Shown in pieces: positions 3,494 through 20,375 of a stretch of 22,282 nucleotides of DNA. Under the pieces are notes generated by a model, which was not told the DNA's origin, did not search any database, and saw only the letters and a program-made list of their open reading frames with translations. Made by a program: the position numbers and the translations under genes. This DNA comes from Hepatocystis sp. ex Piliocolobus tephrosceles. Taxonomy: Eukaryota; Apicomplexa; Aconoidasida; Haemosporida; Plasmodiidae. The stretch covers positions 1 to 22,282 of the forward strand of contig CABPSV020000220.1 of assembly GCA_902459845.2 (NCBI GenBank). The letters are read 5' to 3'. Numbering within the stretch: the first letter of the stretch is position 1; every line of letters starts with the position of its first letter.

Positions 3494-5817
3494 ATGAAAA
3501 AAATGAAAAAAATGAAAAAAATGGAAAAAATGGAAAAAATGGAAAAAAGGGAAAAAATGGAAAAAATGGAAAAAATGGAAAAAATGGAAAAAATGAATAC
3601 TGATAACATTATGGATCTTATGGATGACTCTATAACATACGTTATAGAAGCTAGTAAAAACAAACCCCTTACTTCAATAAAAATGGAAATAGAAGGAATG
3701 AAAAATATTATACATAACGATATAATAAAAATATTAAATAAAAATTTTTATGAATTTATGTCTTTACCATCTAATCTTAATCATATAGAAAATATAATAC
3801 CTATTTTAGAAAAAGAAATAATTAACTCTAAACATCATATAAAAAATTGGTTACATGAAATACAAATAATAAATAATAATATAAATAATATTATAATAGA
3901 TAAAATTAATATATTTTATATAAAAAATATATTAACAAATCATATAGAAATATATCAATTAATTAATAAAATACAAAAAGAAATAAGTATTTATGAAAAA
4001 TTAGAATATCATAATTTTATAGTACATATACAAAAAACAGTTAGCTCCTCAAATAATAAACTCAATGAGGATAATGAAAAATTGTTAAAAAAATGTATAT
4101 ATAGTCATAAGGACATGTATACTAGTAATAATAATAATAGCACATATACAGAAAGTTGTAATGAAAAACATGATTTTTATCTTTTTTATCATCTCAGTGA
4201 AAGAATTTTTAGTATATCAAAAGAAATTTGGAAAACAAAAGCTATGTTATATAATACTTATAAAAAAATATGTAAAATATCACCAACATTATATCACTTT
4301 AATAATATTATTATAAAATACGGTATAGCATCAAATTGCAACAAACAAATTATAGACATAACTAATAAATATTCTTTTGAGTATTTAAATAATTGTTTAA
4401 TAAATGTTGTTAATAAAATGAAACATATTTTTTATTATCTATTATATGTTTATCTTCAAATTATTAAAATTGTTCCTATTCAAAATATAACAAATAATTA
4501 TATATTAAATCAAACTACTTGCTATATTATCAATTCTTGTTACTTACTTAACAATTTTGATGTGTTTATTCAACAGTTCAATGACATCTTTATTAAGCCC
4601 ATGGTATGATTTGTCTATACAAAAAAGAGCGAAATAAAAAAAAAAAAAAAAAAAAAAAAAGCTTTGAACAAGCTACCACAAAATAAAATTAACAAAAAAA
4701 AAAAAAATAAACAAAACATAACAGTGTTTTTTTTTGTTTTTTATGTACCATAATACATAAATGTGTTAGTAAATAAATACGTTAGTACATAAATACGTTA
4801 GTACATAAATACGTTAGTACATAAATGTGTTAGTACATAAATACACTAGTACATAAATACACTAGTACATAAATACACTAGTACATAAATACACTAGTAC
4901 ATAAATACACTAGTACATATTGTTTTCCTCCCACTTTCACAGGAACACGAACCGACGAAGGCATATGATGACTTCTTGGCTTATGTAAAAACAGAAATAA
5001 TAGAAAATAAAAAGTTAGTAGACATTACCCAAAAAATAGAAGAAATGGATGAATATGTTTTGTTTTACACCAAAGGAATAATAACAAGTGTATTATCCAT
5101 GATAAAAGAAAAATACTGTGATATATTTGTAATAAAATATTATGACTTATTTATTGAAAATTATATTAAGACAGTTGATTTTTTAAATAATGTAAAAAAA
5201 AATAAAAAACCATATGAACAATTCATGCTTAATAAAGTTATTAATAAATTTTTAAGTACTTTTCAAACAGATTTATATGTCAAATATATATTAAATGTTA
5301 TAGATACGAAAATAAATGAAAAAAATCAAAATATTATTATTTTCGATAAAAAGTATGTATTCTATGATAATTTTTTTTGGCTTAAAGAAACCATAAATTT
5401 AATTAAAATATTTAAATTAATATTTAATAATAGTCATTATATACAAACTGCTTTAACTACTTATCTTACTTTTATATATAAACATGTTAAAATTTATTTA
5501 AAAAATATAAAATCGTTTTTAATGTTTTTAGAAGATAATAATAGTAACAACAATAATATAAACAAAATAAATCAAATAAATAAAAATGAATTTAACTGGA
5601 GTCCTACTTTAAGTTACAATAGTATCGGTTTTATCTTATCAGAATTTTTATCATTACTTCAAATTTTAAAAACAAAATATAAAATAACAAATTTTATTAA
5701 CAAAGATAATAACCAGTTTATAGTACCTCAAGATTTGGGACATATACCTACATGGATTTTTAACAAATTATTGGGTTCTTCAGAGCATTATTATTATGAG
5801 TATTTACATACAGGTAA

Positions 5818-8780: not shown

Positions 8781-10985
8781 ATGCAATATACATGCCCTTT
8801 AGAAAACAACAGCAGCTTCAATATAGAAAAAGAAAAACGAAAACAATTGTTTAAACATCTCAAAAAATGTCCCTTATATTTAAAAAATTTATTTTTACAT
8901 TACAATCCTTTTTACTTCCCACACATAAATGATAGTTATTTTTATTTGATTAATAAAAAAAATGATGAAGTAAAGAATATAGAGCAGGTCTTATTTGATT
9001 TTCAGGATTTTTTTAATTTTATTATTATAAATATATTAAAAACAAATAATATATATATAACAACTTATGAACAATTTTTAAATTTAAAATATAAAATCTT
9101 ATTAAAATATTTTATAAAATATGAACAAAATGGATTACTATTACTTTTAAAAAATGAAAATTTTATAATTAAATTAAAAAAAAAAATAAATATTGGTGAA
9201 CATGTAACTTACGAGGACATGTTTAAGTCTAAACATGAGCAGGAAAATGCTATAAGAGAACAGAATAAAAACGAAACTAACGAATATTTTAACGAAACTA
9301 ACAAATATTTTAACGAAACTAACAAATATTTTAACGAAACTAACAAATATTTTAACGAAACTAACAAATATTTTAACGAAACTAACAAATATTTTAACGA
9401 AACTAACAAATATTTTAACGAAACTAACAAATATTTAAACGAAACTAACGAATATTTTAACAAAATCAATGAATATTTAAACTGTTATATTTCCAAATTG
9501 AAAATATCAATAAAAGAAAGTAGAGGTGATAACATAAAATATAATAACGACTGTTCGCATACTGGGTATTATCCTCCTCATAACAACAATAGCAATAAAA
9601 ATGACAACAACAGCAGTAGCAACGGTATACAAACAGAAGTACCAACTTTGTCAAAAAATGTAAAATTTCTTTTACCAATATTAATGCTTAAAAATATAAC
9701 AAATATTAATAATTACAAAATATGCAAAGAAATTGTACAGTTTATAGATAAATATGTATTTTGTGAAAGTAAAAAAATATATTCTTCAGATAAAAAAGAA
9801 GGAAAATACACAACTAGTGATTACGATGATGAAAATTACCTAACGAATAACAGTGATGATAATGTAAAGATATCGAATTCATCAAATGTACCTATAGAAA
9901 AAAATTCTTTAGATAAAGATGAGATTATTAGCATAGTGATATACCTTACTGTTTATCTTTGTTGTAAAGTAAGTATGACAAAAAGAATACAAAATAAAAA
10001 TTTTGATAAAAAACAAAAAAATAATCAAGAAGAAAAAATACCAACATCTATACATTTTTTTTTACATAATTTAAATAAACATGATATACAAAATATAAAT
10101 AAATTATTTCTTTTAATATATTTTAATACTAATTTTTATGAAATTTATCATTCTTTGTTTAATAATACTAAAACATGTACTCATTACAACCATAATAATC
10201 TTTTTATTGAACTAGGAGCTGGTAAGGGGAATACAACAAGGTGGGTTAATTTTACTATGAATGAATTGCCAGCAATATTATTTCAGTTTTTTTCATTTCA
10301 AGAAAATAATTTTTATAAAATCAAAAGTAGTATACAATATAATAATGAAAATTATAACAGTTTTTATAATTCAACAATAAATACCAATATACTACAAAAA
10401 AAAGAGTCCAAAGAAACTGTTATATTTAATGAAATAAATAACACCACACTCAATAATGTATCTATATCACTAATAGAGTGCAAATCTGAAAATAAAGTTA
10501 TACCTTCAACAACCCAATTGGTTGAACATAGTAGATGCAAAATTCTAATTATTGAAAAGGAATCACTTAGAAATAAAAAAGAACAGAAAGATTTATTTAT
10601 GCATATACAAAAAGAAAATTATAAAAATTTGTTCAGAATAAAATCAGATATAATTGATTTTAATTTAAATGAGTTTTTAATGTTTGTTAAAAATATAAAC
10701 AAAACTAAAAAGTCACAATTTATTACCAAAAAAAAAAACATATATTTCTTTTTTATACCAGATATAATAACTTTCTATTACTACATGGGCGTGTTTAAAC
10801 TTAAGAGCAGTATGTCCACGATGAACTGCATTAAGAGAGTGTTGCAGGTAGGGGAGCCACTCATGCAAGAACAACAACAACAGCAGCAACAGAAACAGAA
10901 ACAGCCTATGCAACAACAACAACTTGTGCAACAACAACAACTTGTGCAACAACAACAACTTGTGCAACAACAACAACTTGTGCAA
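8781..10985 (+). CDS. TRM13: tRNA:m4X modification enzyme / tRNA 2'-O-methyltransferase TRM13-like, partial (3' end in assembly gap)
   Basis: The TRM13 family methylates the 2'-OH of nucleotide 4 in the tRNA acceptor stem using S-adenosylmethionine. Seen: an N-terminal CP...HLKKC segment (C5, H26, C30) like the CHHC zinc finger of TRM13; PFYFPHIN near 43-50; the SAM-binding motif ELGAGKG at 477-483; a KILIIEKESLRNKKEQ segment near 590-605 matching the family's next conserved block; and IKSDIIDFNLNEF near 620-632. Long Asn-rich inserts include ten heptad repeats (164-233). The open frame reaches a Gln-rich repeat and then 100 N; the short frame and stop after the N run are meaningless because the gap length is unknown. 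The family's later GKHLCG and CCHH blocks are not visible. The CAG|GTAGGG at about 10848 could instead be a splice donor, making the Gln-rich part intronic. The first finger His appears replaced by Ser. Confidence 0.8.
9270..9479 (+). repeat. 21-bp coding repeat in the TRM13-like gene
   Basis: Ten in-frame copies of a 21-bp unit encoding Asn-Glu-Thr-Asn-Lys-Tyr-Phe, with Glu and Leu variants at the edges. The near-identical nucleotide sequence points to recent slippage or unequal exchange. The insert lies N-terminal to the methyltransferase core. Confidence 0.92.
10873..10985 (+). repeat. Gln-rich coding repeat, 15-bp unit, broken by the gap
   Basis: CAA/CAG runs are followed by four to five copies of a 15-bp unit encoding Gln-Gln-Gln-Leu-Val. 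The array runs straight into the N run, so it is the likely reason the assembly broke here, and its true length is unknown. Confidence 0.88.
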
Positions 10986-11085
10986 NNNNNNNNNNNNNNN
11001 NNNNNNNNNNNNNNNNNNNNNNNNNNNNNNNNNNNNNNNNNNNNNNNNNNNNNNNNNNNNNNNNNNNNNNNNNNNNNNNNNNNNN
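10986..11085. other. Assembly gap, 100 N
   Basis: Exactly 100 N, the usual placeholder for a gap of unknown size. It follows a 15-bp tandem repeat and precedes an (ATCATTA)n repeat. The missing sequence must hold the 3' part of the TRM13-like gene. Confidence 0.98.
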
Positions 11086-11290
11086 AATCATTAATCATTA
11101 ATCATTAATCATTAATTAACAAGTATGACATTATATATGTATAATAAAAGAACTATAATAAAAATAATTTTTTTTTTTTATTTTACAATAATGAAAAAGA
11201 TAGGTATTGAAGGATGTGTTCCAATATTTTATTTTATTTGTCATTCTATTTTACTTGTCATTCTATTTTATTTGTCATTCTATTTTATTT

Positions 11291-11396: not shown

Positions 11397-14300
11397 TTAA
11401 CCATTCTTCTTCGCTTGGTCGCTAACATAACTCAAAACGATGCCTTTGACTTTTTCCAAAATCTGATTTAATTGATCAGTTGTTTTTGCCTCTGCATATA
11501 TACGAATCATATGTTCGGTACCGGATGGCCTTATAAAACATCTACCACAATATGGATCCACTTCCTTTACTATTTTATTAATATTATGTTGTAACAACTG
11601 TGGCTGGATTAAATATTGTTCGTGTGTTGGGTGCGGTATAAGTGTAGATAATACATGACTAGGACATGGTAAATTAATAAATAAGGAAGGTAAACGTATA
11701 TAAATATTATGCCATTGTTTCAAAGTCCAATTTAACAAAGCTAATGACAATTCAATACTTATAAAATTTAACAATGCATCACCTGTTCTCTGATTAAAAA
11801 AAAATATATATTTTTTTAACCCTATAAAAAATATATTATTTTTTATACCTAAGTTTTCAGACCATTTATCTAATTTATTTATATTTGCATATATACTACC
11901 ATGACCATTGGATTCAAATAATATACCTATCGATGATTCTTGAGCTAATCGATCTAAATATTTTATACCAGTTTTAGTACATAAAAGATTTATATTAATA
12001 TATTCAAATACTGTATTTTTATTTTTATTAATTTCATTTATTGTTTTTTTCATGTAATAAACAAAACTTGAATTGACATAAGCAGTATATATTATATTTA
12101 TGTCAATTTTTTTTTCTAATATATTTATTCTATTAGTTATATTACCTTTTTCTAAATTTATATTAGATAATATTTTTATTACACATTGAAAAATCAAGCA
12201 AATTATTTTGGATCCATCGATAATGGAAATGTTGTCACTTTTTCTGTAGATGCCACTATCGATAGTATTGTCGATAGTATTGTCTATAGTATTGTCGATA
12301 GTGTTGTCGATGCCGCTGGCGATACCACTGTCTATACCACTGTCTATGCCACTGGCAATGCTTCTCCGGTTACTTCTTTTATTATCATTACAACGACCAG
12401 TACTAGTATCATTTTTTATAAAAAAATAAATTACCCTGTCTATATCCCCATCAAACGAACAACATTTGTAATTTATTTTTTTTAAAGGCATATTATTAGG
12501 AGATTTATGTTTACTATACACATAATCAGCACCACATTTGAAATTCAAAACAGATTTTTCACTTTCTATGTAATTTATTTTTTTTATTTTTTTTTTTAAT
12601 AAATGAAATACTTTTTTAAATTTATCAATCTTTAAGCTACCCACACCGTTCGAACAATCCAAATAAATAGTTTCTTTTATACAATTTTTCTCTATTTCGC
12701 CATGAAATATTTCGTTTAAATAAGTATAAAGATTTTCAAATAAATAAGTATGATAATAAAAATAAAAATTTTCGCTGTTATATGATGTTAAATATTTATA
12801 TTTATCGTTTTTACTTGTCTCATTTATAAAACTAAGATTTGTTTTTTTTTCTGTGTTTGCATTTTTTTCTGTGTTTGCATTTTTTTCTGTGTTTGCATTT
12901 TTTTCTGTGTTTGCATTTTTTTCTGTGTTTGCATTTTTTTCTGTGTTTGCATTTTTTTCTGTGTTTGCATTTTTTTCTGTGTTTATATTTTTTTCTGTGT
13001 TTATATTTTTTTCTATGTTTATATTTTTTTTTGTACGTTTTTCGTTTCTTTCAATAACAATATTACTTCCGTTATTATTACTGCTACTATTGCTGCTACT
13101 ACTACTGCTGCTTCTACTGCTACTTCCGATACTACTCCCGGTACTACTTCCCATATTGCAGGTACTATCATAAAAATTATCTCCCACAATATTATCTCCA
13201 CTCACATAATTTAGATCATCCAAATTATAATCTTTGTCTATGTCTAAATAGTACAAAACCTTAATTATATTTTTATTTTTTAAAAAGACAAATTTTTTTA
13301 AATAATTTAAATCATTTTTTTTTTTTTGTATGTTGTTATGTATATATTCTTTCTTCTTTTCTATAAAACTATGATCAATTGTTTTATCATGAAAAGCATT
13401 ATTTAGAAAAAAAATTATAAAATGCATACAAGGTGTAGTAATATAACACAAGTTATTTATACATTTGTATATATTTACACAATGTAATGCATCGATAATA
13501 ACATTATTCAAATATATACAACTATCTCTTGTATCAAAACCAATACATATATTACTTTTTAATATACTATAAAAATTATTATTATATATTATATCATCTA
13601 GCTCTTTTAACTTATTATATATATTATCATCAAATATATTTATATTTATCTCTTCTTTAAAAAGCTTACCAATAAAACTTATAGTATTAAAAACGATGTC
13701 GTCTATTTTACAATTGCTATTTTCTTTTGTATAATATAAATGATTATTAACAAGTTTATTTAAAAAATCTTCATATGTTTTCTTCAGTAGCCTACCATCA
13801 CAATCAATCAATTTTATTCCATTCTCATAATGGGGGTTATGCGAAGCAGTTATAACTGCACCAACGCTTTTACAGACAAAAGAAGACAGTTTTTTATCGT
13901 TTAAATCAAAATAGGCATCACTTTTTGTGTATTTATTATTTACATTATTATTATTTACATTATTATTTACATTATTATTTACATTATTATTTACATTATT
14001 ATTTACATTATTATTTACATTATTATCATTTGCATTATTATTAACTTTATCTCTTTCTTCGATTATTTTATAATTGTTCTTAATAAATAACAGACCTAAT
14101 ATTATACCGCATTTACTTACAGCGTTCACTAAGTCACACTTACTATTCCTATATTTATCACGAAAGCCACTAGTACCATAAACAAATTCTACTGAATTTT
14201 CAAAATGAACATTTTCTTTTTCCAAAAAGTAATTTGGTAAATGTTTTTCTATTAATACTTTTACTTTTTTATAAAATTGGCTATTTTTACAGTTATCCAT
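11397..14300 (-). CDS. PAGM: Phosphoacetylglucosamine mutase (GlcNAc-phosphate mutase)
   Basis: Interconverts GlcNAc-6-phosphate and GlcNAc-1-phosphate, the step before UDP-GlcNAc formation, which feeds GPI anchors and N-glycans. All four hallmarks of the alpha-D-phosphohexomutase superfamily are present: active-site loop TASHNP at 151-156 with phospho-Ser153; metal-binding DGDIDR near 615-620; sugar-binding ESNGHG near 794-799, the AGM1-type variant that separates it from PGM/PMM enzymes; and phosphate-binding RPSGTEH near 924-930. YGTSGFR near 41-47 matches the family start. At 967 residues it is much longer than typical AGM1 enzymes (roughly 540). The excess is low-complexity inserts: Asn-Val repeats (about 87-122), a Ser/Asn tract and NTEK repeats (about 395-490), and Ser-Gly-Ile-Asp repeats (about 645-685). 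All lie between core motifs. No intron is needed; the ATG at 14298-14300 gives a complete N-terminus. Confidence 0.95.
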   Translation of the reverse strand: MDNCKNSQFYKKVKVLIEKHLPNYFLEKENVHFENSVEFVYGTSGFRDKYRNSKCDLVNAVSKCGIILGLLFIKNNYKIIEERDKVNNNANDNNVNNNVNNNVNNNVNNNVNNNVNNNNVNNKYTKSDAYFDLNDKKLSSFVCKSVGAVITASHNPHYENGIKLIDCDGRLLKKTYEDFLNKLVNNHLYYTKENSNCKIDDIVFNTISFIGKLFKEEININIFDDNIYNKLKELDDIIYNNNFYSILKSNICIGFDTRDSCIYLNNVIIDALHCVNIYKCINNLCYITTPCMHFIIFFLNNAFHDKTIDHSFIEKKKEYIHNNIQKKKNDLNYLKKFVFLKNKNIIKVLYYLDIDKDYNLDDLNYVSGDNIVGDNFYDSTCNMGSSTGSSIGSSSRSSSSSSSNSSSNNNGSNIVIERNEKRTKKNINIEKNINTEKNINTEKNANTEKNANTEKNANTEKNANTEKNANTEKNANTEKNANTEKKTNLSFINETSKNDKYKYLTSYNSENFYFYYHTYLFENLYTYLNEIFHGEIEKNCIKETIYLDCSNGVGSLKIDKFKKVFHLLKKKIKKINYIESEKSVLNFKCGADYVYSKHKSPNNMPLKKINYKCCSFDGDIDRVIYFFIKNDTSTGRCNDNKRSNRRSIASGIDSGIDSGIASGIDNTIDNTIDNTIDNTIDSGIYRKSDNISIIDGSKIICLIFQCVIKILSNINLEKGNITNRINILEKKIDINIIYTAYVNSSFVYYMKKTINEINKNKNTVFEYININLLCTKTGIKYLDRLAQESSIGILFESNGHGSIYANINKLDKWSENLGIKNNIFFIGLKKYIFFFNQRTGDALLNFISIELSLALLNWTLKQWHNIYIRLPSLFINLPCPSHVLSTLIPHPTHEQYLIQPQLLQHNINKIVKEVDPYCGRCFIRPSGTEHMIRIYAEAKTTDQLNQILEKVKGIVLSYVSDQAKKNG
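12845..13030 (-). repeat. 18-bp coding repeat in the mutase gene
   Basis: About ten in-frame copies of an 18-bp unit encoding Asn-Ala-Asn-Thr-Glu-Lys, with Asn-Ile variants at the N-terminal side. The central copies are identical at the nucleotide level. The array forms a hydrophilic loop between the active-site Ser and the metal-binding motif. Confidence 0.92.
13935..14030 (-). repeat. 12-bp coding repeat (Asn-Val-Asn-Asn) in the mutase gene
   Basis: Several near-perfect copies of a 12-bp unit give an Asn/Val run just ahead of the TASHNP loop. It lies between beta-strand segments of domain 1, where a long surface loop would be tolerated. Confidence 0.88.
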
Positions 14301-15950: not shown

Positions 15951-16214
15951 TTACTTTTTAGCCGCTTTTTTTCCACCTTTTGCTGGGTAATATATTTTTT
16001 TGAGGGATGGTAATAAGGATGATTCAATTATTTGTGCTTTTTTAGCGTCATCAAAAACCATAGTGTATAAATATTTCTTTGTTCTTAGTTTTAATTTTGT
16101 TATTATCAGGTTCTTTCTTTTCTTACTTTTCTTCTTTACAATAATAACTGCTGTAGTATCAGGCAACCTGCTGATTTTCAAAAAGGAACGTATATCTGTT
16201 ATTAGTTTTGGCAT
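15951..16214 (-). CDS. RPL38: 60S ribosomal protein L38 (eL38)
   Basis: Small eukaryote/archaeal-type protein of the large ribosomal subunit. The 87-residue frame begins MPKLITDIRSFL and contains the family's most conserved block, KLRTKKYLYTMVF (about 42-54), followed by DDAKKAQIIESSLLPSL, both aligning with the eL38 fold without gaps of note. Compared with the roughly 70-residue human protein it has about a dozen extra residues at the C-terminus (YYPAKGGKKAAKK), a basic tail, and a small internal Lys-rich insertion. The ATG at 16212-16214 gives the canonical MP-K start. A CAG preceded by a T-rich tract lies about 15 bp upstream on the minus strand and could be a 5' UTR splice acceptor. It is transcribed divergently from P0. 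Confidence 0.93.
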   Translation of the reverse strand: MPKLITDIRSFLKISRLPDTTAVIIVKKKSKKRKNLIITKLKLRTKKYLYTMVFDDAKKAQIIESSLLPSLKKIYYPAKGGKKAAKK

Positions 16215-17546: not shown

Positions 17547-18295
17547 CATGTGATAACAATATTACGTTATATATTTTGTAATATTCATGTTCTTACATTG
17601 GAAACTTGATGATGTATTAGTAAAACATATGTACATATACATATATACATATACATATATACATATACATATATATACATATCGTTGTATGCATTTTTTA
17701 CATGATTTATAATCTGTTTTCGTGAAAATACATATATAAAACATATACATATATATATTTACAATATAACTTCATGTATTAAGTTTTTTTTTTTTTATTT
17801 TTTGTTCACATTTTTTATTTTCTATTTATGCATAATTATTATTGTTAATTTTTTTTTAGTTTTTGTGAGCTAAATATCTGCTGACAAATCAATTAATCAA
17901 TCCGTTTATATATATATATGTATTTGTGCTTATGTATGTACATATATACCTGCGCGCACGTATATTATTAATCACTTGCTCATTTTATTTTATTTTTTTT
18001 TTATTTTGTTTGTTGTTTTGCAGGTTAAATTGATTGTCGGACATAGATCGTGTACTGCCAGTCTCCATAAACACAAAAACATGTTTCCTTTTTTTACATT
18101 ATAATATTCTTTTTTCTATTCGTTTATATCTTTTTTTTTTTTTTTTTTTTTTTTTTACTACTATATTATTAACTATATACTACTACCAGCTACGCAGTTT
18201 TTCAAACTCTTGTTATTTTTAATAGTGTCTTCTAGTTTTTTAATTTTTTAGTTTTTTTTTTTTATCATTTATTACATAAATAACAGCAGAAGAAA
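16215..18295. promoter_or_regulatory. Divergent intergenic region between L38 and P0 (probable promoters and 5' leaders)
   Basis: About 2.1 kb separates two head-to-head ribosomal protein genes that are normally highly expressed together, so promoters for both must lie here; I cannot place core elements. It contains many poly(T) tracts, (TA)n tracts (16710-16722, 16999-17012) and a CATATA-rich near-repeat at 17629-17682. No protein gene is credible. A TTGATGATG at 17607 resembles box C but has no box D at a suitable distance. Confidence 0.55.
17275..18023 (+). other. Possible 5' UTR intron of the P0 gene
   Basis: A donor-like ATG|GTAAGC at 17275 lies in a short patch of more complex sequence preceded by TTCATTCCTAG. 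An acceptor-like T-rich tract ending TTGTTGTTTTGCAG lies at 18010-18023, followed by an unusually mixed sequence (18024-18080) that looks like exon rather than intergenic DNA. Together they would fit a leader intron for P0. This is inference from splice-site appearance only; the pairing of this donor and acceptor is not proven. Confidence 0.3.
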
Positions 18296-19246
18296 ATGGC
18301 AAAGTTATCAAAAGCACAGAAGAAACAAGTGTATATGGAAAAGCTGAGTGCCCTTATTCAGCAATACACAAAAATTTTAATTGTACATGTAGATAATGTT
18401 GGGTCCGATCAAATGGCTACTGTACGTCAAAGTTTGAGAGGTAAAGCTATATTGTTAATGGGTAAAAATACAAGAATAAGAACAGCATTAAAAAAAAATT
18501 TAAGTGCAGTACCAAACATAGAAAAATTATTACCCTTAGTTAAATTAAACATGGGTTTTGTTTTTTGCATAGACGATTTAGCTGAAATTAGAAATATAAT
18601 TCTTCAAAATAAATCACCAGCACCAGCAAGATTAGGAGTTATTGCACCTGTTGATGTTTTTATACCACCAGGACCAACAGGTATGGATCCTTCACATACT
18701 TCTTTTTTTCAGTCACTAGGTATATCCACAAAAATTGTTAAAGGACAAATTGAAATACAAGAACATGTACATCTTATAAAACAAGGTGAAAAAGTATCAG
18801 CATCTTCAGCTACACTTTTACAGAAATTTAATATGAAACCATTTTCTTATGGTGTGGATGTACAAACAGTATATGATGATGGTGCTGTTTATGATGCCAA
18901 AGTGTTAGATATAACTGATGAAGATATATTAAAAAAATTTTCAGTAGGTGTTGCTAATGTAGCTGCATTATCGAGAGCTACTGGTATCATAACAGAAGCA
19001 TCTTATCCACATGTATTCGTCGAAGCATTCAAAAATATTGTTGCATTAGTTATTGACACAGATTATACTTTCCCATTAATGCAAAATATTAAAAACATGA
19101 TCGATAACCCAGATGCATTTGCTGCTCCTGCACAGTTACCTACTACCGATACTAAACAAGAAACTAAAAAAGAAGAAGCGAAAAAAGAAGAGGAGGAAGA
19201 AGAAGAAGATGATGAAGGATTTATGGGATTTGGCATGTTTGATTAA
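18296..19246 (+). CDS. RPLP0: 60S acidic ribosomal protein P0 (uL10)
   Basis: Forms the base of the large-subunit stalk; it binds the GTPase-associated centre of 28S rRNA and carries the P1/P2 dimers that recruit elongation factors. The 316-residue frame has the length and order of P0: an N-terminal uL10 rRNA-binding domain with GKNTRIRTALKK at 57-68; the eukaryote-specific insertion domain (about 110-185) with the conserved IPPGPTGMDPSHTSFFQSLG segment; the P1/P2-binding helices (about 200-265); an Ala/Thr/Lys/Glu-rich hinge (about 275-305); and the universal acidic tail ending DDEGFMGFGMFD. Codon usage is less extreme than in neighbouring genes, as expected for high expression. The start context AGAAAATGGC is favourable. 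The stop is followed after 96 bp by the first U14 snoRNA copy, so the snoRNA may lie within, or just past, the P0 3' UTR. Confidence 0.97.
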   Translation: MAKLSKAQKKQVYMEKLSALIQQYTKILIVHVDNVGSDQMATVRQSLRGKAILLMGKNTRIRTALKKNLSAVPNIEKLLPLVKLNMGFVFCIDDLAEIRNIILQNKSPAPARLGVIAPVDVFIPPGPTGMDPSHTSFFQSLGISTKIVKGQIEIQEHVHLIKQGEKVSASSATLLQKFNMKPFSYGVDVQTVYDDGAVYDAKVLDITDEDILKKFSVGVANVAALSRATGIITEASYPHVFVEAFKNIVALVIDTDYTFPLMQNIKNMIDNPDAFAAPAQLPTTDTKQETKKEEAKKEEEEEEEDDEGFMGFGMFD

Positions 19247-19342
19247 GGTACTATTTTTGTAATACATAAAAAAAAACAATAAAAATAAACATAATAAATT
19301 GTGATATTTATGTATAAAGCTTATTCTAAAATAATGTTTTAT

Positions 19343-19441
19343 TTGTGAATGATGATAAATATATATAAACCGTTCGCAGTTGAGTTTACACAACGATGAA
19401 TTTTTAATATATTTGAGCCTTTACTTAGATGTCTGACACAA
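19343..19441 (+). ncRNA. U14: U14-like box C/D snoRNA, copy 1
   Basis: U14 acts in early pre-18S processing and guides one 2'-O-methylation in 18S rRNA. Seen: terminal stem TTGTG/CACAA (19343-19347 with 19437-19441), box C ATGATGA 19349-19355, domain A CCGTTCGCAGTT 19370-19381, C'-like GATGA 19395-19399, guide CTTAGATG 19424-19431, box D CTGA 19433-19436. Domain A pairs with the conserved AACTGCGAATGG near the 18S 5' end (one G-U). The guide pairs with CATCTAAG, and the fifth base upstream of box D selects the C equivalent to human 18S C462, the known U14 target. It begins 97 bp after the P0 stop codon. The rRNA complementarity uses my knowledge of conserved 18S sequence, since no rRNA is in the window. 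Mature ends are estimated. Confidence 0.88.
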
Positions 19442-19644
19442 TATAAAAATTATTTTTATTTGATATATACTTATATATATACATACGTTTTTTTGTATGT
19501 TTTAATGAAAAAAAAAAAAAGAAGCATAGCAAAAGTTGTATACATATATTTGTATGTCAACGAACCAAATGTAATTATATATATACACACCTTTGCGATG
19601 TACTTTTGCGTGTGTATGTAAATATAATTGAAAATAAATTTTTT

Positions 19645-19743
19645 TCTTGAATGATGATAAATATATATAAACCGTTCGCAGTTGAGTTAATACAACGATG
19701 AATTTTTAATATATTTGAGCCTTTACTTAGATGTCTGACAAAG
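19645..19743 (+). ncRNA. U14: U14-like box C/D snoRNA, copy 2
   Basis: Same architecture as copy 1: box C 19651-19657, domain A 19672-19683, GATGA C' element near 19696-19700, guide CTTAGATG 19726-19733, box D 19735-19738. The terminal stem is of a different type: T-rich ...TTCTTG upstream pairs with CAAAGGAGAAAA downstream using A-U and G-U pairs with one mismatch. The core differs from copy 1 only in the loop after domain A (GTTAATAC instead of GTTTACAC). Ends are estimated from the stem. Confidence 0.86.
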
Positions 19744-19950
19744 GAGAAAATTTATTTTTATGTTATACGTACTTATATATATATATATACCTACGTTTTT
19801 TTGTATGTTTTTAATGTTAAAAAAAAACAAAAAAAACAGGCAAAAGTTGTATTAATACATTAATACATGTTAATAGTCGAATAGCATTATATATACATAC
19901 TTATGTATATACATATGTATGTATATACTTATTCTAAAATAATGTTTTAT

Positions 19951-20049
19951 TTGTGAATGATGATAAATATATATAAACCGTTCGCAGTTGAGTTAATACA
20001 ACGATGAATTTTTAATATATTTGAGCCTTCACTTAGATGTCTGACACAA
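19951..20049 (+). ncRNA. U14: U14-like box C/D snoRNA, copy 3
   Basis: Box C 19957-19963, domain A 19978-19989, guide CTTAGATG 20032-20039, box D 20041-20044. The terminal stem TTGTG/CACAA is the same as copy 1, as is the 28-bp sequence just upstream. It differs from copies 1 and 2 by a T-to-C change in the extended guide (GCCTTCAC for GCCTTTAC), which brings it closer to perfect complementarity with conserved 18S rRNA. Confidence 0.87.
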
Positions 20050-20250
20050 TATAAAAATTATTTTTATTTGATATATACTTATATATATACATACGTTTTT
20101 TTGTATGTTTTAATAAAAAAAAAAAAAGAAGCATAGCAAAAGTTGTATACATATATTTGTATGTCAACGAAACAAATGTAATTATATATATACACACCTT
20201 TGCGATGTACTTTTGCGCGTGTATGTAAATATAATTGAAAATAAATTTTT

Positions 20251-20349
20251 TTTTGAATGATGATAAATATATATAAACCGTTCGCAGTTGAGTTAATACA
20301 ACGATGAATTTTAAATATATTTGAGCCTTCACTTAGATGTCTGACAAAG
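20251..20349 (+). ncRNA. U14: U14-like box C/D snoRNA, copy 4
   Basis: Box C 20257-20263, domain A 20278-20289, guide CTTAGATG 20332-20339, box D 20341-20344. The terminal stem is of the copy-2 type: poly(T)-G pairs with CAAAGGAGAAAA by A-U and G-U pairs, about ten pairs without a mismatch. It carries the GCCTTCAC form of the guide, as in copy 3, plus a TTTTAA-to-TTTAAA change in the internal A/T-rich loop. It is the last copy; no fifth box C is seen downstream. Confidence 0.86.
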
Positions 20350-20375
20350 GAGAAAATTTATTTTTTTTTTTTATA

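Follow-up and report, generated by a model that had tools for sequence, protein, structure and literature searches.

What are the four nearly identical elements that lie just 3' of the gene for ribosomal protein P0 in a contig of Hepatocystis sp. ex Piliocolobus tephrosceles, and how did there come to be four of them? The stretch of DNA analyzed here (the window) is 22,282 nucleotides long (GenBank assembly GCA_902459845.2, contig CABPSV020000220.1, positions 1 to 22,282 of the forward strand), and 3' of P0 (uL10) it carries four head-to-tail 99-nt box C/D snoRNA genes, all on the plus strand. A preliminary description had placed four tandem 99-nt elements at 19343..20349; this span is exact, and 91 of the 99 columns are invariant across the copies. 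Judging from their sequence, these genes are very probably four paralogues of the U14 box C/D snoRNA in a tandem array; this confidence covers U14 identity in a tandem array, and the alternatives concerning the number of working or existing copies (below) overlap with that reading. The genes and their neighbor are as follows:

18296..19246, plus strand: 60S ribosomal protein P0 (uL10), a single open frame of 316 aa; upstream neighbor and possible transcript partner
19343..19441, plus strand: U14/snoR13 copy 1 (snoR13 62.5 bits; SNORD14 36.2 bits, below cut-off), with box C at 19349-19355, domain A at 19370-19381, C'-like element at 19394-19399, D-guide at 19424-19432, box D at 19433-19436 and terminal stem UUGUG/CACAA
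19645..19743, plus strand: U14/snoR13 copy 2 (snoR13 61.8 bits; SNORD14 31.3 bits, below cut-off), with domain A at 19672-19683, D-guide at 19726-19734, box D at 19735-19738 and a single C/A mismatch in the stem
19951..20049, plus strand: U14/snoR13 copy 3 (snoR13 65.6 bits; SNORD14 34.7 bits, below cut-off), with domain A at 19978-19989, D-guide at 20032-20040, box D at 20041-20044 and a stem like that of copy 1
20251..20349, plus strand: U14/snoR13 copy 4 (snoR13 64.6 bits; SNORD14 33.8 bits, below cut-off), with domain A at 20278-20289, D-guide at 20332-20340 and box D at 20341-20344

The array does lie directly downstream of P0, as had been proposed: the P0 open frame ends at 19246, copy 1 starts 97 nt beyond the stop codon, and the encoded protein matches the Pfam domains RL10P_insert, Ribosomal_60s and Ribosomal_L10 as well as PDB P0 chains (lowest E 7e-90). 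P0 is the final ORF of at least 100 aa in the window, and the 3 kb that follow it are AT-rich and hold no ATG-started ORF of such size. A gene for ribosomal protein L38e (window 15954-16214, minus strand, 87 aa, Pfam E 8e-19) lies close by, upstream of P0 and on the opposite strand, so two ribosomal-protein genes adjoin here. Ahead of the P0 start codon, at window ~17860-18025, the sequence GTGAGC is followed ~160 nt on by the pyrimidine-rich TTTTGCAG, an arrangement that by eye looks like an intron in the P0 5' UTR. The window also encodes a homologue of phosphoacetylglucosamine mutase (AMG1) whose long inserts are rich in asparagine and in repeats, repeated NTEKNA units among them (11397-14300, minus strand), a protein of the 26S protease regulatory subunit type with an AAA ATPase and a proteasomal OB domain (589-1920), a protein with a COG2 N-terminal match barely above the cut-off (3494-4609) and one with a weak TRM13 match that is below the cut-off (8781-11108).

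Comparison of the whole window with Rfam at its curated cut-offs gave four matches, one per element, and all four are to snoR13 (RF01588), a family of C/D snoRNAs: the copies score 61.8-65.6 bits against a gathering score of 60 (E 5.9e-8 to 8.6e-9 for the whole window), and each is thus a member of that family by its curated covariance-model cut-off. The check that had been suggested, an Rfam covariance search for U14, gave a divided answer, in that the same four places are found by SNORD14/U14 (RF00016) at 31.3-36.2 bits (E 0.00036 to 1.6e-5 for a 1.1-kb stretch), below its cut-off of 64, so none of the four is a member of RF00016 as curated, and the family that does accept all of them is snoR13. 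The SNORD14 model is nonetheless aligned end to end to each copy, covering box C, domain A and GAUGUCUGA. In an assembly of 12.39 Mb in 611 contigs, SNORD14, snoR13 and a DNA search each gave these four places and nothing else at E<=0.001; the candidates scored were 98 of 121 for SNORD14, 59 of 5124 for snoR13 and 4 of 4 for the DNA search; such counts are lower bounds. Matches to microRNA families in AT-rich sequence were far below their cut-offs and were ascribed to low complexity, and a 35-base piece of the element had 0 matches among viral contigs.

If the curated U14 model falls short, on what does the U14 assignment rest? In all four copies, each of the two U14 guide segments pairs with a published Plasmodium 18S primer, and because of this we regard the copies as U14 orthologues that Rfam files as snoR13; the original designation of the elements as U14 snoRNAs is upheld by this pairing together with the end-to-end SNORD14 alignments and the four snoR13 scores. 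In every copy, 12 contiguous pairs join domain A (CCGTTCGCAGTT) to AACTGCGAACGG, as computed against a Plasmodium SSU (18S) primer that reads AACTGCGAACGG (PMC10141976), so the expected complementarity of domain A to 18S AACUGCGAAYGG is found in four of four. The preliminary description was correct that this complement is present, but the target that it quoted, AACTGCGAATGG, is one letter off the true one. The stretch before box D likewise forms 9 contiguous pairs with ACATCTAAG in every copy, computed against a pan-Plasmodium 18S primer that contains ACATCTAAG (PMC6796404). By eye, these 9 pairs are followed by one extra (bulged) A and then by 6 more pairs, one of which is G-U in copies 1 and 2.

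Counting back from box D, the fifth base in all four copies is a G, which faces the C of ACATC (ACAUC), so that by the +5 rule the guide selects this C in the pan-Plasmodium primer. We take this nucleotide to be Cm462 in human and Cm414 in yeast. The claim that the D-box guide selects the equivalent of human Cm462 therefore stands, with G opposite that C and 9 contiguous pairs in each copy. Neurospora U14 is listed with 18S-Cm411 (PMC2780460).

Relative to the SNORD14 consensus the copies differ by one letter in each of the two segments: A to G in domain A and G to A in the guide (CAUUCGCAGUU to CGUUCGCAGUU and CUUGGAUGU to CUUAGAUGU). With the Plasmodium primers, each of the two altered letters makes a Watson-Crick pair; at these positions the 18S of most other eukaryotes retains the older letters. 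Exact patterns for both target sites found no 18S of the species' own in the 12.39 Mb assembly, nor did a 641-nt 18S stretch used as query (a search that had no positive control), and since this 18S was not found there the pairing rests on the Plasmodium primers.

Each copy had also been said to combine box C, box D, a C'-like element and a closing stem, and all of these are present: box C (ATGATGA), box D (CTGA) and the C'-like CGATGA occur in four of four copies, and the five-pair terminal stem accompanies the boxes as expected of U14, with 19 of its 20 cells paired (5/5 in three copies and 4/5 in copy 2, which has the C/A mismatch). One G-C to U-A replacement distinguishes the stems of the copy types; covariation among these four rows does not go beyond that of shuffled alignments, 87 of 500 of which reached its score and 415 of 500 its number of pairs with both sides changed. 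By minimum energy the copies do not fold clearly better than shuffled sequence does (z -0.05 to -1.40 in five folds). The terminal stem appears in none of the four energy folds of the 99-nt copies and is seen only in a 111-nt fold of copy 4, where it is extended outward by pairing of a U-run with AAAGGAGAAA.

The P0 protein bears on the genome in which the array lies. Among the best 120 of its 2836 matches, the top one is 89% identical and the 21 Plasmodium-named rows are 79-86% identical. In the P0 tree the window protein branches at a fork that is open (89/85) and outside the rows named Plasmodium, which does not fit neatly with the consensus, as stated in the Hepatocystis genome paper, that Hepatocystis is nested within Plasmodium (PMC7425995). 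P0025, a UniRef entry filed under Piliocolobus tephrosceles, lacks one inner segment and is 86% identical in the match list; it is identical to the window P0 in 272 of 272 aligned tree columns and groups with it at 100/100. A second such entry, P0031, begins in the same way but ends differently. Both are P0 proteins of the parasite filed under the monkey's name, most likely because parasite sequence was left in the host assembly. Hepatocystis sequence is known to occur in the red colobus assembly, whose reads gave a Hepatocystis draft of 19.95 Mb in 2,439 contigs (PMC7425995). The P0 match thus makes Hepatocystis, a blood parasite of monkeys akin to the malaria parasites, the most likely source by sequence, in preference to a named Plasmodium. 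The 12.39 Mb, 611-contig assembly searched here is smaller and is either part of that draft or another assembly.

How, then, did four copies arise? Repetition extends to the spacers between the copies, which makes the array a block that was duplicated rather than a set of four separate genes. Two dimer units can be delimited:

19320..19927, plus strand: first dimer repeat unit, copies 1 and 2 with their spacers, 608 nt
19928..20369, plus strand: second dimer repeat unit, copies 3 and 4; likeness to the first dimer fades ~20 nt past copy 4

The two dimers are identical in 433 of 444 aligned columns (97.5%). Copies 1 and 3 have downstream surroundings in common (187/191 columns), and copies 2 and 4 have upstream surroundings in common (97/101 columns). 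The bodies of the copies are 95.5-98.9% identical in pairwise comparisons. Within the first dimer, the bodies of copies 1 and 2 agree at 87 of 89 positions (97.8%) and the spacers that follow them (~190 nt) in only 146 of 203 columns (72%), which is still above the values for 100 random intergenic pairs (mean 52%, maximum 61%). The sequence after copy 4 is 58.5-59.5% identical to the other spacers, inside that random range. Because the dimers are near-identical, while copies 1 and 2 have like bodies and diverged spacers, the doubling appears to have taken place in two rounds: on this sequence evidence a single gene was probably doubled first and the pair afterwards. One gene, a unit of ~300 nt, would have been doubled, the spacers would then have drifted as the bodies were kept, and the resulting dimer of ~608 nt would have been doubled in turn. 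One letter of the guide extension (T in copies 1 and 2, C in copies 3 and 4) groups the copies differently from their flanks; this one site faintly hints at conversion between neighboring copies.

The same comparisons bear on how many of the copies are real and working. The array could hold only one or two functional genes, the others being recent duplicates on their way to becoming pseudogenes; early decay of this kind might look like the stem mismatch of copy 2, or like the U that copies 1 and 2 have in place of C in their guide extension (where a G-U pair is still possible), and a difference between the dimers of just 11 of 444 aligned columns means that there has been little time for decay. 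We consider this unlikely, though it is the strongest of the alternatives, given that no copy has a change in box C, in box D or in either contiguous guide segment and that copies 1 and 2 have kept their bodies far more alike than the spacers that follow. The 97.5% identity of the dimers would also fit an array that is partly an artefact of assembly, the true locus having two copies and two haplotypes or strains having been joined end to end. If the contig comes from the published draft, that draft goes back to short linked reads from a single monkey with a natural infection, and contigs of several assemblies were pooled and merged (PMC7425995). However, the sequence after copy 2 (~19770-19927) differs from that after copy 4, so the second dimer does not simply repeat the first over its full length; we judge such a joining quite improbable, and even then two tandem copies would be left.

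A chance resemblance of AT-rich sequence to a snoRNA is a further alternative, in favor of which stand the very high AT content of the region and folding that is not clearly better than that of shuffled sequence. The E-values of the snoR13 matches, with 12-bp and 9-bp complementarity at both U14 sites in every copy, make such a coincidence so improbable that we set it aside and proceed with four tandem U14 paralogues.

How might such an array be expressed? We infer that the genes would be transcribed, together with P0, and processed, that their RNA would direct methylation, that all four copies may function and that dosage may be the reason for there being four. The four copies would probably come from one longer RNA polymerase II transcript, read out of P0 or begun just past it, and exonuclease trimming to ~90-99 nt would be halted where protein is bound to the terminal stem and boxes C and D. 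The mature RNA would pair with pre-18S at two sites, through domain A (12 bp, a processing contact) and through the guide before box D, and the guide would place a 2'-O-methylation on the C of ACAUC. Because copy 1 is so close to the P0 stop codon, it likely lies within the P0 3' UTR or a read-through transcript. There is precedent in Plasmodium, where the snoRNA PFS9 was placed in the RPL7a 3' UTR by RT-PCR and PFS11/12 are a co-transcribed pair after RPL5 (PMC2656528). A 3' UTR location was shown there for only one of three snoRNAs tested (PFS9), PFS11 having given no product with its upstream gene and PFS14 having been inconclusive (PMC2656528), so nearness to a stop codon is no proof of co-transcription. 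A more ambitious and somewhat doubtful idea is that in the Hepatocystis lineage the essential U14 was amplified fourfold and tied to the P0 3' UTR, so that one transcript couples subunit supply; if true, a single transcript would supply P0, a protein of the large-subunit stalk, along with several RNAs that process the small subunit.

U14 is a well-known small RNA with a part in ribosome production, and the RNA described here belongs to a known family and is mostly ordinary, as its biochemistry is expected to be; all that is mildly unusual is that four copies of it stand in tandem. In the Hepatocystis genome paper non-coding RNAs were predicted with Rfam, and 19 were counted (PMC7425995), so the four genes may already be annotated there. 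That an annotation of protein genes would show nothing here, as had been remarked, is thus beside the point, as Rfam finds all four. No description of a U14 cluster next to P0 was found in literature searches that covered open-licence papers, and the main text of the Plasmodium snoRNA study mentions U14 once, in a reference title (PMC2656528). That study describes most Plasmodium C/D snoRNAs as single-copy; against this background four tandem copies are notable, as had been claimed, although linked multi-copy U14 was already known. When copy numbers of other snoRNAs within this genome were compared, a pattern of the U35 type, based on a published P. falciparum oligonucleotide (PMC2656528), was found at one place at up to 1 mismatch, as an exact match, and a U24-type pattern at 0 places; the U3 family search, which had no positive control, gave 0 matches. 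The array offers a clear multi-copy case for a group whose C/D snoRNAs were called mostly single-copy (PMC2656528), and its four natural, distinguishable copies provide a means to ask if haemosporidian snoRNAs come from ribosomal-protein 3' UTRs.

How does the array compare with known systems? All four copies match snoR13 end to end, and they share the bulged guide of its consensus (CUUCACUUAGAUGUCUGA), which is exact in copies 3 and 4 and has one C to U change in copies 1 and 2. They differ from the snoR13 model in lacking nine of its positions between domain A and the C'-like box and in having 5 nt extra before the guide and 1 nt extra near the 5' end. The Plasmodium RNAs from which this family was built are reportedly those of Chakrabarti et al. 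2007. With SNORD14/U14 the copies have box C, domain A, guide and box D in identical order, but most of that model's inner stem is deleted and their guide has the extra A. U14 is clustered in some plants. In human, mouse and rat there are three U14 copies in hsc70 introns (PMC7277114), which resembles our case in that several linked U14 copies accompany one host gene; the mammalian copies are intronic, however, and by eye there is no convincing intron around those described here. A likeness in position is seen to Plasmodium PFS8, 9 and 13 (RPL7a) and PFS11/12 (RPL5), whose genes also lie in the 3' UTR or downstream of a ribosomal-protein gene (PMC2656528), but those clusters set different snoRNAs side by side, whereas the Hepatocystis array presents one snoRNA four times.
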